This document shows, piece by piece, positions 840 through 24,274 of a DNA stretch of 24,872 nucleotides. The notes under the pieces were generated by a model. That model saw only the letters and a program-made list of their open reading frames with translations. It did no database searches and was not told the origin of the DNA. The first letter of the stretch is position 1, and the number at the start of each line of letters is the position of its first letter. The position numbers were made by a program, and so were the translations under genes. The stretch is from a virus, in the IMG/VR virus record IMGVR_UViG_3300034520_000190, positions 1-24,872 of that record, one strand, 5' to 3'.

Positions 840-868
840 TTGACAGACGGGAAAGAATGTTCTATTTT
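840..868 (+). promoter_or_regulatory. Sigma-A type promoter before the structured RNA and late operon
   Basis: A perfect TTGACA (840-845) is followed after exactly 17 bases by TATTTT (863-868), which matches four of six consensus -10 bases. Transcription would start near 875, upstream of the long helix and of terS. No other equally good forward promoter was noticed before the structural genes, so this is the best candidate late promoter. Confidence 0.65.
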
Positions 869-874
869 GGTAGC

Positions 875-1070
875 AGTGAAGCATCCCGGCGGGGCCGGGA
901 AATAAGCTGCGGAGGAGCTGAGAGCCCACTAGCTTTCTCGAACAACCGGAAGAGCGCGAATTTGGACGGAGCTTTCTCCCCCTTTCTCCGCCGTCCCTCT
1001 ATAACTTTGTCCATCCCAGGGTATATTACGCGCTCTTCCGGGTGTTTCGAGGGAGCTGGTGGGCTTTTAT
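875..1070 (+). ncRNA. Candidate structured RNA / structured 5' leader upstream of terS
   Basis: The predicted transcript begins with a perfect 7-bp hairpin (884-890 with 894-900, loop GGG). It continues into a helix in which 919-958 pairs with 1029-1069: about 39 base pairs interrupted only by one A-G mismatch (945/1042) and one bulged U (1045). The five non-Watson-Crick pairs in the helix (930/1058, 935/1053, 936/1052, 922/1066, 920/1068) are all G-U in a forward transcript, whereas the reverse transcript would have A-C mismatches. The 70-base apical part (959-1028) holds a further hairpin (964-971 with 986-996, with bulge). The 3' flank is TTTTATGTTT, terminator-like. It is either a discrete small RNA, an RNase III processing site, a leader controlling late transcription, or a packaging signal. 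I recognise no known RNA family. Confidence 0.6.
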
Positions 1071-1087
1071 GTTTGGTGGTGGTAGCT

Positions 1088-1525
1088 GTGGCCGAGACGA
1101 TGAAAAAACGAACCCGGAAAATCATCCTGGCCGAGACCTACGTCCTGAGCGGCTACGACCTCACCGCCGCCTGCCGGGCCGCCGGGTACAAGAACCGGGC
1201 CTGGGCCTACCAGTTACTGCAGGACCCGGAGGTTCGAGAGCATATCGCCTGGGTCGAGGAGATGCGCAGGGAACAGACCATCAACCTGCGCAAGGCCATC
1301 GACGCGGACGCCGCCGAGGCCAGGCGCAAGCTCCAGGAGCAGCGCGCCAGGCTGGAGGAGTTTCTGGAGCGCAACCCGGGCACGGCCTGGGCGGAAAGGC
1401 TTCTGAAGGATATTTATGTTTACCTGATCGACAAGTCTATTCCGAACCCGCCGCAGAAACACGAGCACTCCGGGCCGGACGGCGAGGCGCTGCAAATCAT
1501 CATCAAGGCGCCAGATGAGGCATGA
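1088..1525 (+). CDS. terS: Terminase small subunit
   Basis: The 145-residue protein recognises phage DNA for packaging and hands it to TerL. The N-terminal third has the helix-turn-helix pattern of Terminase_2-type small subunits: LSGYDLTAACRAAGY, followed by a second helix ending DPEVREHI. The middle is a charged helical segment, as expected for the oligomerisation core, and the C-terminus is a flexible tail. GTG 1088 follows GGTGGTGGTAG at good spacing; ATG 1100, in frame, has a poorer site and is the alternative. The frame stays open back to 857, but that stretch is the structured non-coding region. The stop overlaps the ATG of the large subunit (ATGA), the usual coupling. Its position directly before terL supports the call. 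Confidence 0.88.
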   Translation: MAETMKKRTRKIILAETYVLSGYDLTAACRAAGYKNRAWAYQLLQDPEVREHIAWVEEMRREQTINLRKAIDADAAEARRKLQEQRARLEEFLERNPGTAWAERLLKDIYVYLIDKSIPNPPQKHEHSGPDGEALQIIIKAPDEA

Positions 1526-2880
1526 GGTGGGAGGCGCAGCCGAGGCAGGCTAAGTTCCTGCTGAACGTCCTGGACCCGGACGGGCCGGACGAGATTCTTT
1601 ACGGCGGGGCCGCAGGCGGAGGAAAGACCGAATCCCTGCTGATTGCCTGCATCGTTTGGTGTCAGAAATACCCCGGCACGTGGGTACTGTTCCTGCGCCG
1701 CACATATCCGGAGCTGGAAGCAAAGCCGATACCCCGGTCAAAGGAGCTCATCCCCCGCCTGGTGGCGCAGTACCAGGAAGTCAAGCACAGGTGGACGTTT
1801 GCTAACGGCAGTGTGCTGCAGTTCGGGAGCCTGGATAAGTCCGGGGACGAGTACAAATACCAGGGAGCCGAGTTTTCCCTGATCGCATTCGACGAACTGA
1901 CGCACTTCCAGGAAGGCCAGTACCTGTACCTGCTTTCCCGGAACCGCACCACCAACCCGGAAATCAGGCCCAAGGTTATTGCGGCCACCAACCCGGGAGG
2001 GCCAGGACACGCATGGGTTAAGGCGCGGTGGATTGACCCGGCAAAACCAGAAACCGTATGGGAAGCGCCGCAAACTCCGGAGCAGGCTGCGGCTGGACTC
2101 CCGCCGAGGAAACGGTGCTTCATCCCAGCCAGGGTGCAGGATAACCAGATTCTTTGCCGGGCGGACCCGGGCTATGTGGCCAGGCTGATGGAGTTGCCCG
2201 AGGCGGAACGCCGGGCGCTCCTGGATGGCGATTGGGACGTGTTCGCCGGCCAGGTGTTCAAGGAATTCAGGCGGGACGTCCATGTGATAGATCCATTCCC
2301 GATTCCTCCAGAATGGCGGCGCTGGCGGGCGCTGGACTTCGGTTACACGAACCCGGCCTGCGTGCTCTGGCTGGCCCTGGGACCGGACGAAACGGTTTAT
2401 GTTTACCGGGAGCTTTATGTTACCGGAATGAAGGCCAGCGAGCTGGCCCAGAAGGTTGTCGAGTTGAGCCGGGGCGAGCATATTACCCTGACCCTGGCGG
2501 ACCCGGCGGTATTTGCCAAGACCGGGCATGAAGGGGAGAGCATAGAGCGGACCCTGCGGGAGAACGGCCTGCCCGTTCAAAAGGCCGATAACGATAGATT
2601 GGCCGGCAAGCAGCGGGTGCACGATTACCTGACTGTCTTTGAGGGGTGGGACGGCAAGCCCACCAGCCGGCTGAAAATCTTCTCGACGTGCACCAACTTA
2701 ATCCGGACCCTGCCGCAGCTGGTGTACGACCAGAGCCGCCCGGAGGACGTTGATACAGACTGCGAGGACCATGCTTATGACGCGCTCCGCTACGCCCTAA
2801 TGAACCGCCCTGCGGTGAGGACGCAGAGGAGCAGGCAGCCCCGGGTGCAGCCCGGCATAAGCACAATCACCGGATACTAG
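1522..2880 (+). CDS. terL: Terminase large subunit (packaging ATPase/nuclease)
   Basis: This 452-residue motor pumps DNA into the procapsid and cuts the concatemer. The N-terminal ATPase has Walker A GGAAGGGKT (residues 28-36), an arginine pair at 59-60, Walker B ending IAFDE (D124, E125), and a coupling motif ATNPGG at 155-160. The C-terminal RNase H-like nuclease shows the expected acidic residues: D272 in ALDFGYTNP, D327 in LADPAV, and D416/D420 in CEDHAYDALRY. Length is normal for the family. It overlaps terS by four bases and is followed after nine bases by the portal gene. All key residues are present, so it should be active. Whether packaging is by headful or by cohesive ends cannot be read from this sequence. 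Confidence 0.96.
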   Translation: MRWEAQPRQAKFLLNVLDPDGPDEILYGGAAGGGKTESLLIACIVWCQKYPGTWVLFLRRTYPELEAKPIPRSKELIPRLVAQYQEVKHRWTFANGSVLQFGSLDKSGDEYKYQGAEFSLIAFDELTHFQEGQYLYLLSRNRTTNPEIRPKVIAATNPGGPGHAWVKARWIDPAKPETVWEAPQTPEQAAAGLPPRKRCFIPARVQDNQILCRADPGYVARLMELPEAERRALLDGDWDVFAGQVFKEFRRDVHVIDPFPIPPEWRRWRALDFGYTNPACVLWLALGPDETVYVYRELYVTGMKASELAQKVVELSRGEHITLTLADPAVFAKTGHEGESIERTLRENGLPVQKADNDRLAGKQRVHDYLTVFEGWDGKPTSRLKIFSTCTNLIRTLPQLVYDQSRPEDVDTDCEDHAYDALRYALMNRPAVRTQRSRQPRVQPGISTITGY

Positions 2881-8555: not shown

Positions 8556-9273
8556 CGCCGGGCACGGCGGGAAAGACCCGGGCGCGGTCGGACCGACCGG
8601 CCTGCAGGAAAAGGTCGTCACCCTGGCGGTAAGCCTGCAGGTGGCCCAAATTCTGAAGGCGGCGGGCCTGGCTGTAAAGCTGACCCGCACGGATGATTCA
8701 TATGTCGTCCTGTCCCAGCGGGCCGACATATCCAACCAGTTCGGGGCGGATGCTTTCGTGTCAGTCCACGTCAACAGCGTGGATAACAACAAAGCCGGCG
8801 GCACGGAGACCTACCACCACACCATGAGCGCCCCCGGGAAGAAATTGGCCGCGGCAATTCAGAAAAGGCTGGTGTCCGCCCTGGGCCTGGCCGACCGGGG
8901 CGTTAAGAAAGAAAACTTCGCCGTGCTGCGGCTGACCGAGGCACCGGCGGCCCTGGCGGAGCTGGCGTTCATTTCAAACCCCACCGAGGAAGCCCTGCTG
9001 AAAAAGCCGGACTTCCTGGCGAAGGCAGCCCGGGCCATAGCGGAAGGGATAGCCGACTTCCTGGGGGTGCAGCTTCGACCGGCGGAACAGGCACCTGCGC
9101 CGGCGGCTCCTTCTCCGGCAAATGAGGACGCGGTGAAGATTGTGGCCGGAGAGAAAACCATCGAAGGCATTATGCTTAACGGTGTTACCTACGCACCGGT
9201 CAGGGCGCTGGCTGAGGCACTGGGCAAGCAGGTGAAGTGGGACCCGGCGAAAAGAGAAGTTGAAATTCTGTAG
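8527..9273 (+). CDS. N-acetylmuramoyl-L-alanine amidase endolysin (Amidase_3) with stalk domain
   Basis: The 248-residue enzyme cuts the amide bond between MurNAc and the stem peptide. Residues 5-183 form an Amidase_3 domain: the zinc ligands are H13 in DAGHGGKDPGA, E28 in LQEKVV and H81 in SVHVNS, with catalytic E145 in LAELAFISNP. A Pro/Ala linker (about 190-205) leads to a C-terminal copper-amine-oxidase-like stalk module (about 208-248: IMLNGVTYAPVRALAEALG...VKWDPAKREVEI), which is frequent on clostridial secreted proteins and probably binds the wall. There is no signal peptide, in agreement with release by the upstream holin. ATG 8527 is used; GTG 8536 is an alternative start with somewhat better spacing. 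Confidence 0.93.
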   Translation: MVPVKRVCIDAGHGGKDPGAVGPTGLQEKVVTLAVSLQVAQILKAAGLAVKLTRTDDSYVVLSQRADISNQFGADAFVSVHVNSVDNNKAGGTETYHHTMSAPGKKLAAAIQKRLVSALGLADRGVKKENFAVLRLTEAPAALAELAFISNPTEEALLKKPDFLAKAARAIAEGIADFLGVQLRPAEQAPAPAAPSPANEDAVKIVAGEKTIEGIMLNGVTYAPVRALAEALGKQVKWDPAKREVEIL

Positions 9274-9288
9274 CGGGGAGCGGTGGCC

Positions 9289-9804
9289 ATGACCGCTGGA
9301 GATATTATCGCGTTTGCTGCGGATCGCCTCGTTAAAAAGTCCATCGACCCAAACGATGGCATAGGTTGGCTGAACGACGCGCTGACCGACCTGGGCATTG
9401 ATGCGTTCAGGTTCAACGAGCAGGCAATTGTTGCCGTGGCCAACACCTGGGTCAACCTGCCCGCCGACTGCCTCAAGGTTTACGAAGTACGGGACAGCCA
9501 GGGCAAGGATTACCGCGATTGGGAAGCGGATGCGGCCCGGATCCGCTTCGCCGACGATGATACATTTACTGTCAGGTATTACCGGTTGCCGAACGAGGTC
9601 GTTTCAATCAACGACACTCCTGACTGTCCGGAAATATATCACCGCGCCCTGGCCTATTACATTGCCTACCGCTTCGAGGCCCGGGACTTTCCAGGGGAAC
9701 AGGATACCCTGGCCTGGCTCTCTGAATACCAGGCCCGCATGAATAGCGCCCGCAAGCAACTGCAGAAAAACACCAAGCTGGTAAATGTGCGTGTCGTGAG
9801 GTGA
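9289..9804 (+). CDS. Head-tail adaptor (connector) protein, SU10-like
   Basis: ATG 9289 lies nine bases after GGGGAG; GTG 9283 is closer than usual to that site. The 171-residue protein has an N-terminal helical segment with IGWLNDALTDLGID, a short beta region (WVNLPADCLKVYEVRD, VRYYRLPNEV), then CPEIYHRALAYYIAYRFEARDF and a final helix. This matches the helical-bundle adaptor proteins that bind the portal in podoviruses and SU10-type phages. Location between capsid/lysis genes and the tail nozzle supports the role. The exact family cannot be confirmed by reading alone. Confidence 0.72.
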   Translation: MTAGDIIAFAADRLVKKSIDPNDGIGWLNDALTDLGIDAFRFNEQAIVAVANTWVNLPADCLKVYEVRDSQGKDYRDWEADAARIRFADDDTFTVRYYRLPNEVVSINDTPDCPEIYHRALAYYIAYRFEARDFPGEQDTLAWLSEYQARMNSARKQLQKNTKLVNVRVVR

Positions 9805-9809
9805 CGGCC

Positions 9810-11210
9810 ATGCCGGTGGCTGAATGGGAGATAAGGGATTTTTCGGAGGGCCTGATCGACCGGGTTGACGACAACCTGCTACCCGAGAACGTGGCTATGG
9901 ACTGCCAGAACTTTATCAGCAGAAGAATCGGCAGTTTGGTCAAGCGGGCCGGGCAGGCGAGGTTGAACGGAAGCCCCCTTGGCGGCCCGGTCCAGGGGAT
10001 GCATGCCTACTACAAAGGCAGTCTCCGTCGGCTGGTGGTTGTCGCAGGCGGCGTAGCTTCTTACTGGGACCCGGGCACGTCCAGTTTTGTGACCTTAAAG
10101 ACCGGGCTCGACCCCTCGACACCGGTGTGTTTTGAGACCTGCGTTAACTACATGGTCAGCTTTAACGGGGTTAACGCCCCCTGGAAATGGGACGGCACTA
10201 CAGTTTCTACCTTGCTGGGGGCGCCAGGCGACGGCCAGTTTGCTGTACTGCATAAGGAGAAGCTGTTCACCGTTCCCAAAAGCGAACCGTCCACCCTCCG
10301 GTGGTCGGACAGTTTCCAGCCCGAAACCTGGCAATCCGTGAATTACTGGGACGTGAAGAAGGGGGACGGGGATGTAATAACAAACCTGAGCCAGTACCTA
10401 TCCGAGTTGGCGGTTTTTAAGCGCCGTTCCCTGCACGTCCTGCGGGGCACCAATCTGGACGATTTTGGCCTGGACGAGGTTGATTCCCGTACTGGCTGCG
10501 TGGGACCTTTCGCCGCAGTTTCTTACGGGCCGTACTTGTATTTTGTCAGCGACGAGGGTATATGCGTGTTCAACGGGACAAGGGTGTTCAACCTCTCCCG
10601 TGAACGGATCCCGGATTTCTGGAAGAGCATCAACAAAGAATACCTGCACAGGGCCGCCGCGGGCGTTTGGGACGGGTTGATCTGGTTCGCGCTGCCCGAA
10701 GGGGGCAGTTCATATAACAACGTGGTTCTGGTATATGTCCCGCCCGAAGAAGGGGCCGTCGGTGGGAAGTTTTGGGTGTGGCGGGGGATAAATGCTTCCT
10801 GTTTCCAGGTGTACGATGACGGCACCCGGCTTTTGTTTTACAGCGGGGATTCCACGGCCGGATACGTTAACCAGCAAGATGTGGGTACAGACGATTTTGG
10901 CAGCCCCATCGAAGCCTACTGGGTGGGCAGGACGTTCGCCATAGGCGAGGCTGACAGGAAAAACCGTTTCCTGCGGGCTTTTGTCCAGGACAGTCCCGGG
11001 GCCAACGATGTTGACCTGCAGGTTGCAATAGATTACGGTCCGTTTGAATCGCTGGTACCCGACGGCGGGGACGCTTTGGTAAGGCGGTACAACTTCTACA
11101 ACACGTATACAGGTCGGTACCTGCAACTCAAACTGACCCATTCAGCCCTTGGCTCCTGCGAGGTGCGGGGGCTTAAAGTGCTTTACAAGCCGATGAAAAG
11201 GGCTTCGTAG
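9810..11210 (+). CDS. Tail nozzle / stopper-type beta-propeller protein
   Basis: ATG 9810 follows GAGGTGA, a near-perfect site (GTG 9801 is the alternative). The 466-residue protein opens with the EWEIRDFSEGLIDRVDDNLLPENVAMDCQN pattern (a FxxGL...P..A....N module) typical of podovirus tail tubular/nozzle proteins. It continues with repeated beta strands of propeller type: YYKGSLRRLVVVAGGVASYWD, LHKEKLFTV, SELAVFKRRSLHVL, GPYLYFVSDEGICVFNG. The C-terminus turns into an Ig-like or barrel region. It would plug or extend the short tail below the adaptor. Together with the absence of tape measure and tube genes this argues for podovirus morphology. Confidence 0.75.
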   Translation: MPVAEWEIRDFSEGLIDRVDDNLLPENVAMDCQNFISRRIGSLVKRAGQARLNGSPLGGPVQGMHAYYKGSLRRLVVVAGGVASYWDPGTSSFVTLKTGLDPSTPVCFETCVNYMVSFNGVNAPWKWDGTTVSTLLGAPGDGQFAVLHKEKLFTVPKSEPSTLRWSDSFQPETWQSVNYWDVKKGDGDVITNLSQYLSELAVFKRRSLHVLRGTNLDDFGLDEVDSRTGCVGPFAAVSYGPYLYFVSDEGICVFNGTRVFNLSRERIPDFWKSINKEYLHRAAAGVWDGLIWFALPEGGSSYNNVVLVYVPPEEGAVGGKFWVWRGINASCFQVYDDGTRLLFYSGDSTAGYVNQQDVGTDDFGSPIEAYWVGRTFAIGEADRKNRFLRAFVQDSPGANDVDLQVAIDYGPFESLVPDGGDALVRRYNFYNTYTGRYLQLKLTHSALGSCEVRGLKVLYKPMKRAS

Positions 11211-22234: not shown

Positions 22235-22282
22235 GGATACGTATTAGAAGCGACGGCCAGCCGACGCTACTAATACGTAACC
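22235..22282. other. Candidate attP of the serine integrase (48-bp dyad centred on CA)
   Basis: Counting outward from the CA at 22258-22259, 20 of 23 position pairs are complementary. The arms contain TACGTATTAG (22238-22247) against CTAATACGTA (22270-22279), AGCG/CGCT, and CGGC/GCCG next to the core. The only breaks are single A-A oppositions at 22253/22264, 22248/22269 and 22237/22280. A roughly 50-bp dyad around a non-palindromic dinucleotide is the known architecture of large-serine-recombinase attP sites, and it lies 38 bases beyond the integrase stop. The alternative is a hairpin of a small RNA. Confidence 0.68.
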
Positions 22283-22319: not shown

Positions 22320-23804
22320 TTAGTCCAGCAGCTGGACTTCCACGTTCCCCGGGTAGATAACAATCCTTTTTACAATAGACCTGATGAGCATTTTTCTTTC
22401 CTGGACGTCCGCGGCTTCCCACAGGCTACGGACGTTTTTTATTGCCTCGGCCACCTGTTTTAAAGTCATTTCCTTCGTCTCCAGCCTGGCAAGGGACGCC
22501 TCCAGTTCCTCAATTTGCCGCATTTTCTCTTCCTTTTCCCTGTTCAGCTGGTCCAGCCTCTCCCTGAAATCCGGGAAGCCAATACCGCCCTGCTCGTAGA
22601 GGTCGAACCATTTCTGCTTGCGCCTGTCCACCTCGGCCAGGGCCTTTCTGGCCTCTTCCAGGTATGCGGCCATGCTTGCGCCCTGTTCAATTTCTTCCCG
22701 CACGTTCCGGTATGCCTCCCAGTAGAGGGAGGAATCCCGGCTGTATTCCTCCAGGACGTCCAGGACCATGCCTTCCAGGCGCTCCGCCTGGATCGCGCTG
22801 TTCCTGCAGCTGAACCCGTGTTCCCTGCCGATGCAGCGGTAATACTTGACTATCCTGCCCGGCTTCTTCGCTTTGCGGAACCATCCCCGGTAGCGGCTGC
22901 CGCAAATCCCGCAGTAGACCAGGCCGCTCAGGGGGTACTGGCTGGCCACCTCCCGCATGTGCATGACAGACTTCTTCTCAATCATGTCCTGCACCTTCCA
23001 GAATAATTCCCGGTCGATAATCGGTTCATGTTTTCCTTCGACGATTACCCATTCCTCCCTGGGCCGCCTGATGGTCCTGGTCCCTTTCCTCTGTGTGCGG
23101 TTGTAGACCATGTAGCCGGCATACTCCGGGTTTGTGAGGATCTGGCGGACCGTAATGTTCGACCACTCGTTTCCCTTCCGCGTCCTTATTCCCGAGCTGT
23201 TAAGATGTTTTGCTATCGCCCGCATACCCGTGCCCCGGGCGTAGAGGTTGAACATCTGTTTAATCACTGCGGCTTCGTGGGGCACAATGACAAGCCGCTT
23301 GTCTTCGTTCATGTAGCCGTAGGGGGCCTGGTACGCGCCGCACCATTCACCGCTCCTTGCCTTGTGGAGCATGTTCACCTTCACCCGCTCTGCGATGGAT
23401 TCCCGCTCGAACTGGGCGAAGGCGACCAGCATGGACAGCATCAGCCGGCCGGCAATGGTGCCGGTGTCAAAAGGTTCGGTAACGGATTTCAAACAAACCT
23501 GGGCAGGTTCAAAGACTTCCTCTACCACACGCAAAAGGTCCACGGCCCGGCGGGAAAAGCGGTCCAGCCGGTAGACCAGGACGACATTGAACTTCTTTTG
23601 CCTCGCTTCCTCTATAAGCCTCCTGACGGCGGGCCTGTCCAGGTTTTTGCCGGAATATCCGTCGTCAATGAAATAGTCGTATATTTCCCAGCCCTGGGAC
23701 TTGCAGAAGGCCTCCAGCCGCTCTTTTTGGCTGGCGATGGAATAACCCTCGGCGGCCTGGTCCTCGGTTGAAACCCGCAGGTAAAGCGCGGCCCTGGTGG
23801 TCAT
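22320..23804 (-). CDS. int: Large serine recombinase (phage integrase)
   Basis: The 494-residue enzyme starts at ATG 23804 behind GGAGGGAACC. Residues 1-150 form the resolvase-type catalytic domain with nucleophile S12 in LYLRVSTEDQ and R79/R82 in YRLDRFSRR. Residues about 160-265 form the Recombinase domain (YGYMNEDKRLVIVPHEA, LNSSGIRTRKG, ILTNPEYAG). A zinc ribbon follows with C298, C301, C324 and C333, and then a coiled coil at about 380-445, used to join attP and attB complexes. All the parts of an active large serine integrase are present at normal length. It integrates the phage at attB without host factors; excision needs a directionality factor, not identified here. It is last in a reverse operon after repressor and repeat-protein genes. 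Confidence 0.96.
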   Translation of the reverse strand: MTTRAALYLRVSTEDQAAEGYSIASQKERLEAFCKSQGWEIYDYFIDDGYSGKNLDRPAVRRLIEEARQKKFNVVLVYRLDRFSRRAVDLLRVVEEVFEPAQVCLKSVTEPFDTGTIAGRLMLSMLVAFAQFERESIAERVKVNMLHKARSGEWCGAYQAPYGYMNEDKRLVIVPHEAAVIKQMFNLYARGTGMRAIAKHLNSSGIRTRKGNEWSNITVRQILTNPEYAGYMVYNRTQRKGTRTIRRPREEWVIVEGKHEPIIDRELFWKVQDMIEKKSVMHMREVASQYPLSGLVYCGICGSRYRGWFRKAKKPGRIVKYYRCIGREHGFSCRNSAIQAERLEGMVLDVLEEYSRDSSLYWEAYRNVREEIEQGASMAAYLEEARKALAEVDRRKQKWFDLYEQGGIGFPDFRERLDQLNREKEEKMRQIEELEASLARLETKEMTLKQVAEAIKNVRSLWEAADVQERKMLIRSIVKRIVIYPGNVEVQLLD

Positions 23805-23832
23805 CTGGTTCCCTCCGTCATTAAAAGATGAT

Positions 23833-23861
23833 GGCTTTGCAGGAGACGGTCCCGCAAAGCC
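23833..23861 (-). terminator. Possible intrinsic terminator/attenuator between repeat-protein gene and integrase
   Basis: GGCTTTGC (23833-23840) pairs with GCAAAGCC (23854-23861), with an extra GGA/TCC inside. Read on the reverse strand the helix is followed by ATCATCTTTTAATG. The T-run is delayed, so termination may be partial and would limit integrase expression relative to the repressor and repeat protein. Confidence 0.5.
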
Positions 23862-23869
23862 GTAAAACA

Positions 23870-24274
23870 TCAGAATCCATCATCGAACCAGGTATTTCCG
23901 ATGTAGCGCCCAACCGTACTCCTTCCCCAGCTGTAATCGGTGTAAAGGTTCCTGCCGAGCCAGTAGCTTGTTGCACTCGTCCCGTCGCTCCAGTTCGTGT
24001 AGAAGCGGCTGCCCAGCCGGTAACCGGAAGAGCTTAAACCGTTGCTGTAATCGGTGTAAATGCGGTTGCCGATGCGGTAGGTTGTCGCACTCAGGCCGTT
24101 GCTCCAGTCGGTGTAAAGACGGTTGCCTATGTAGTAGCTTTTTGCCGTGAGCCCGTTGCCGTAATCGTAGTAGTACGTCCTGCCGATCCAGTAACCGGTA
24201 CCGGCAAAAGCCGTTGCCGAGAGGGCCAGGACCAGCACGAGTGCAAGCACAAGTATTGCCGCCGTCTTTTTCAC
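23870..24274 (-). CDS. Secreted protein of 19-residue Tyr/Gly/Asn repeats
   Basis: The GTG start at 24274 is chosen because AAAGGAGGTGATC precedes it at ideal spacing; another in-frame GTG at 24283 lies inside that site. Of 134 residues, 1-24 form a signal peptide (KK, long Leu/Val/Ala core, ATAFA cleavage site). The mature part is five exact 19-residue repeats (28-46, 47-65, 66-84, 85-103, 104-122) and a partial sixth, with consensus Y-x-[IL]-G-[NSR]-R-x-Y-[TY]-[DN]-[YW]-x-x-G-x-[ST]. There is no cysteine and no anchor. The ribosome binding site begins right at the repressor stop, so it is expressed in lysogeny. The function is unknown; a lysogenic-conversion or surface-acting role is inferred from context. 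Confidence 0.85.
   Translation of the reverse strand: MKKTAAILVLALVLVLALSATAFAGTGYWIGRTYYYDYGNGLTAKSYYIGNRLYTDWSNGLSATTYRIGNRIYTDYSNGLSSSGYRLGSRFYTNWSDGTSATSYWLGRNLYTDYSWGRSTVGRYIGNTWFDDGF
23873..24193 (-). repeat. 57-bp coding tandem repeats in the secreted protein
   Basis: Five full units and one partial unit without length variation encode the IG-x-R-x-Y-T-D repeat. Unit-to-unit differences are spread through the sequence, so this is a protein-level repeat and not a recent DNA expansion. Confidence 0.85.

Follow-up and report, generated by a model that had tools for sequence, protein, structure and literature searches.

Long hairpins near gene starts in phage transcripts are familiar from the RNase III sites of the T7 early region, the lambda N leader and sib, and bacterial RNase III needs roughly two helical turns. 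In lambdoid phages, the PR′-tR′ late switch with its Q antitermination combines a promoter, a leader of about 200 nt and a hairpin with a U-rich flank ahead of the late genes (PMC6606751). Long hairpins visible on both strands, some of them near phage genes, also occur among the palindromic structured-RNA candidates described from human microbiomes, the majority being predicted terminators (PMC8040213). An RNA tied to packaging is exemplified by the packaging RNA of phi29. To our knowledge, packaging-gene control in temperate phages with SU10-type head genes has been little studied, and it is in such a phage that the long helix described here lies before terS, recalling each of these systems in part.

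The helix is found in a linear virus record of 24.9 kb (IMGVR_UViG_3300034520_000190), the whole of which was analyzed and is referred to as the window (24,872 nucleotides). Its gene order is terS, terL, SU10-type portal and major capsid protein, holin and amidase endolysin, followed on the opposite strand by a large serine recombinase and an S24/LexA-type repressor. Judged by this gene content the virus is a temperate phage, and its host, to go by the CwlD-like amidase and the holin family, is probably Gram-positive. The recombinase gene (22320-23870, minus strand) has beside it an imperfect inverted repeat at 22235-22282, with 23-bp arms (87%) and a central 2 bp, a layout that would be expected of a serine-integrase attP site. 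Inside the same gene, 22812-22823 fits the Gram-positive SOS-box pattern GAACNNNNGTTC exactly, with the overall number of such matches at chance level.

The helix and its setting before terS

The features between the putative promoter and terL are as follows.

840-868, forward strand: sigma-70-type promoter-like site TTGACA-17-TATTTT, with 10 of 12 consensus matches
884-900, forward strand: short G+C-rich hairpin opening the leader, 7 pairs in the MFE fold
905-912, forward strand: 5′ side of a weak basal closure, pairing with 1080-1087 beside the terS start in the predicted fold
915-958, forward strand: 5′ arm of the long helix, 43 pairs with 1029-1074; an inverted repeat at the DNA level
959-1028, forward strand: apical domain of 70 nt, holding small hairpins at 964-969/991-996 and at 1004-1009/1017-1022 as well as alternative pairings
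1029-1074, forward strand: 3′ arm of the long helix, with a terminator-like foot, GTGGGC-TTTTATGTTT
1075-1087, forward strand: likely terS ribosome-binding region GGTGGTGG, as read from the sequence
1088-1525, forward strand: terS, small terminase subunit (PHROG phrog_51 terminase small subunit, E 1e-4)
1522-2880, forward strand: terL, large terminase subunit (Pfam Terminase_6N, E 1.7e-15)

Given the site at 840-868, a consensus match that does not by itself prove use, transcription is expected to start near position 875. The 5′ end of the helix lies about 40 nt downstream of that start and its 3′ end lies at the terS ribosome-binding region, with 13 nt between the end of the helix and the GTG that is most likely the terS start codon. 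The terS reading frame is open upstream for 77 codons (857-1087), across the whole helix. A coding role for this region was set aside as chance, the ATG at 857 preceding the expected transcript start; an N-terminally extended TerS from 857 may nevertheless be conceivable. An SOS-like box within the promoter (851-862) was likewise dismissed as being at chance level.

A sequence-only reading of this stretch had described an almost unbroken helix between 919-958 and 1029-1069 in which all five wobble pairs are G-U solely in the forward RNA. Both statements are borne out by a pair-by-pair listing, which gives 39 pairs, interrupted by an A.G mismatch at 945/1042 and a bulged U at 1045, and five G-U pairs (920-1068, 922-1066, 930-1058, 935-1053 and 936-1052), all of which are G.T on the plus strand and become A.C in the reverse RNA. 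Outward extension to 915-1074 adds two further G-U pairs and a bulged U1070 and brings the helix to 43 pairs, beyond which it runs loosely on through 905-912/1080-1087. No other helix predicted in the window, whichever strand is taken, is as long as this stem of 43 pairs, the second longest having 35 pairs on the opposite strand, and none of 500 dinucleotide shuffles reached 43 (mean of the longest helix 14.8, maximum 34). The forward fold of 900-1090 has an energy of −92.8 kcal/mol (z −7.6, with none of 200 shuffles equally good) and the reverse fold an energy of −72.7 kcal/mol (z −4.2). The helix is therefore real and beyond chance. Folding energy by itself is unexceptional, several coding stretches of this G+C-rich window folding equally well; the exceptional property is the length of a single continuous stem.

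The apical region offers a choice of partners that, as that reading had noted, can be read directly in the sequence, namely 963-967 with either 993-996 or 1009-1013. In predicted folds of the incomplete transcript, the pyrimidine-rich loop is the partner of the 5′ arm until the 3′ arm takes its place. At the other end, pairing probabilities in the predicted ensemble leave bases 1075-1079, which are Shine-Dalgarno-like, and the terS GTG mostly unpaired, while base 1080 is mostly paired and bases 1082-1087 are mostly paired to the leader. Because 1075-1079 and the GTG are mostly free in that ensemble, any translational gating would be only partial.

Relatives, strand preference and selection on RNA

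For terS, the gene preceding it, terL and the capsid gene, one and the same contig, 3300033999_000100, is the single close relative. It differs from the window at about 40 positions in 107-223 and at none in 224-1428, after which divergence is about 2% (comparison from 97), and this mosaic boundary suggests recent recombination. The exact conservation of the helix in this contig was rejected as a sign of selection, the whole 1.2-kb block including coding sequence being identical. The helix is absent from the two nearest terL relatives beyond it, at 66% (L205) and 60% (L203). In the 66% relative, the place before terS is occupied by a terminator-like hairpin and a tRNA-Ser(TGA) gene. Upstream of these comes a gene that has a sigma-70-region-4-like domain and a weak Phage_antitermQ match (8668-9934, minus strand). 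No promoter is claimed in that relative, where TTGACA and TATACT are just 9 nt apart. tRNA genes also lie upstream of terL in a few other loci.

Further copies were sought with a covariance model built from the single sequence; as a positive control, it retrieved the sequence it was built from at 201 bits. Apart from the near-identical contig, no acceptable match was obtained in about 160-180 fetched terL loci. Nor was there an acceptable match in about 630 sampled genomes (196 from one class, 398 from one phylum, and two small classes), an empty result that is limited evidence in that the genomes were sampled by bacterial group, not by known host, and the model rests on one sequence. Two weak hits at 17-18 bits (L206 and L207) were taken as chance on account of matching over short stretches only. 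Patterns of the stem and arms gave no other copy in IMG/VR; some contigs share a 16- or 17-mer of one arm, but the surrounding stretches that were retrieved do not fit the covariance model. A blastn search of phage and plasmid records gave nothing past a chance 22-mer, and there is no second copy within the window. Consistent with the sequence-only reading, which knew of no described RNA family of this kind, Rfam 15 has no match in the window at the gathering score (the one hit in 820-1120 was a chance miRNA match at 18.9 bits, where the cut-off is 70), and a search of the open-access literature turned up no structured RNA described at terS. On these comparisons the element is restricted to a single lineage among the relatives found and has no known relatives. 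The proposal of a new leader class at terS is accordingly disfavored: no other terL relative examined has the helix, the two nearest genome relatives carry something else at the site, the covariance-model search of homologous loci that had been suggested gave no relatives beyond the near-identical contig, and the relatives found thus argue against a conserved terS leader class.

The same reading had taken the direction of the wobbles to indicate selection on a forward transcript, and this claim stands in part. The helix is real, favors the forward strand and lies in the expected terS leader downstream of the 10/12 promoter-like site. The G-U asymmetry is, however, partly compositional, mutation bias could mimic it, and the sole relative is identical. 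The forward RNA of 900-1090 is 20 kcal/mol more stable than the reverse RNA, but in shuffles of the same DNA the plus strand is already better by 9.3 kcal/mol (−62.1 versus −52.8), so that almost half of the difference is base composition. A forward advantage of at least 20 kcal/mol occurs in 0.3% to about 1% of windows of the same size across the record, depending on sampling phase. The DNA-level core at 923-958 contains only three G.T differences and one A.G, while the remaining wobbles sit further out, where any fold permitting G-U is biased towards including them. In a two-sided sign test on wobble direction, the three core G.T pairs give p = 0.25 and the five pairs of the original claim 0.06. 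The strand-favoring signal for RNA is thus suggestive and not decisive, and selection on RNA is not demonstrable because the sole relative is identical over 224-1428, coding sequence included.

It is here that an explanation with no RNA role has to be weighed, in which the element is a DNA-level inverted repeat, either a MITE-like insert or a quasi-palindrome produced by template switching, that is decaying by strand-biased mutation. Its arms match at the DNA level over 36-37 bp (E 1.2e-6), it occurs in one lineage only, and relatives have the same place without it. Moreover, C-to-T change on the coding strand of a transcribed phage, acting on an originally perfect palindrome, could yield an equal G-U bias. 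Against such an origin, no further copy was found in the window, IMG/VR, phage and plasmid records or the genomes sampled by bacterial group, and there is no convincing target-site duplication: the only candidate, AGCTG (5 bp), is not directly adjacent to the arms and is expected by chance. We regard an origin of this kind as unlikely, while giving it real weight.

Possible roles in the terS transcript

Most simply, the helix would be a 5′-leader structure of the terS/terL transcript. As its most likely mechanism we tentatively favor, at something short of even confidence, a cis-acting leader hairpin whose processing by RNase III affects terS expression. Transcription from the promoter at 840-868 would produce a leader of about 210 nt, in which the 5′ arm would pair loosely with the pyrimidine-rich loop and then be captured by the emerging 3′ arm. 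The result would be a 43-bp double-stranded stem reaching the terS ribosome-binding region. This stem, predicted to lie well above two helical turns or so, would be an excellent substrate for the host RNase III. Cutting would trim the 5′ end and free the ribosome-binding region from its weak pairing (905-912/1080-1087); left uncut, the stem would shield the 5′ end and dampen terS translation. Counted in support are a forward stability beyond composition (z −7.6 against −4.2 for the reverse), the promoter-like site immediately upstream, the status of the helix as the longest in the window and its spacing from terS. The stem is not essential to operons of this type, because the 60-66% terL relatives lack it.

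Behind the RNase III leader we rank an accidental or inserted inverted repeat, then a terminator or attenuator, a DNA site and lastly a trans-acting RNA. As a leader terminator or attenuator, the stem with its U-rich 3′ flank would halt transcription about 197 nt from the start, and a phage factor or the pairing of 5′ arm and loop would let polymerase pass, as in the lambdoid PR′-tR′ late switch. Several features point this way. The stem base GUGGGC is G+C-rich and is followed by UUUUAUGUUU, giving a d'Aubenton-type tail score of 4.0; the folds open to the growing transcript are mutually exclusive; and a near-consensus promoter before the late genes of a temperate phage would need some brake. 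The 66% relative, in addition, has a terminator-like hairpin before terS with the sigma-70-region-4/weak Phage_antitermQ gene upstream. On the other hand, the U-tract is interrupted and is itself paired within the stem, the arms are 70 nt apart, unlike those of ordinary terminators, the element, with a stem/loop shape beyond what a standard terminator scan covers, is absent from that scan, and no Q-like gene was recognized among the genes scanned in the window and the close relative, where several upstream genes are without assigned function. Termination is to our mind distinctly unlikely as the main role. A related proposal, a lineage-specific leader in which a co-transcriptional switch between 5′-arm/loop pairing and the 43-bp stem controls the packaging genes, appears improbable; if true, such a switch would be of a kind for which terS operons offer no described example.

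Packaging sites are commonly found within or adjacent to terS, and the element adjoins terS, so that a DNA site has to be considered, be it a cos or pac site or one bound by another protein such as TerS, with the symmetry serving a dimeric protein. This would leave the preference for one RNA strand unexplained, relatives of the same terL type are without the element, and no cos or pac site known to us resembles a stem of 43 bp whose arms stand 70 nt apart; we think a DNA site quite improbable. A discrete trans-acting RNA, for example a packaging RNA as the sequence-only reading had entertained, found no positive evidence. The location at terS would suit such a role, and either termination or RNase III could set free a leader of about 200 nt. 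There is, however, no Rfam match, and relatives with the same motor show no conservation; that motor, a Terminase_6 type in which terS and terL are separate, has no RNA requirement known to us. A trans-acting RNA is therefore very improbable.

Comparison with known systems

A long leader hairpin beside a near-consensus promoter provides a concrete candidate site at which RNase III processing, attenuation or gating of translation may take place, in what is at present a single-lineage element that leaves the general picture unchanged. The terS-leader helix is longer and more regular than the RNase III sites of T7, and its cleavage is predicted only. Compared with phi29 packaging RNA, it is without an Rfam match, and the packaging motor and architecture differ. 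The palindromic RNAs of microbiomes are recurrent families (PMC8040213), whereas the terS helix is confined to a single lineage. With the lambdoid PR′-tR′ region it shares the arrangement of promoter, leader and U-rich-flanked hairpin before the late genes, but neither a Q gene nor a Q-binding element was recognized here, and its stem is far longer than that of tR′ (PMC6606751).
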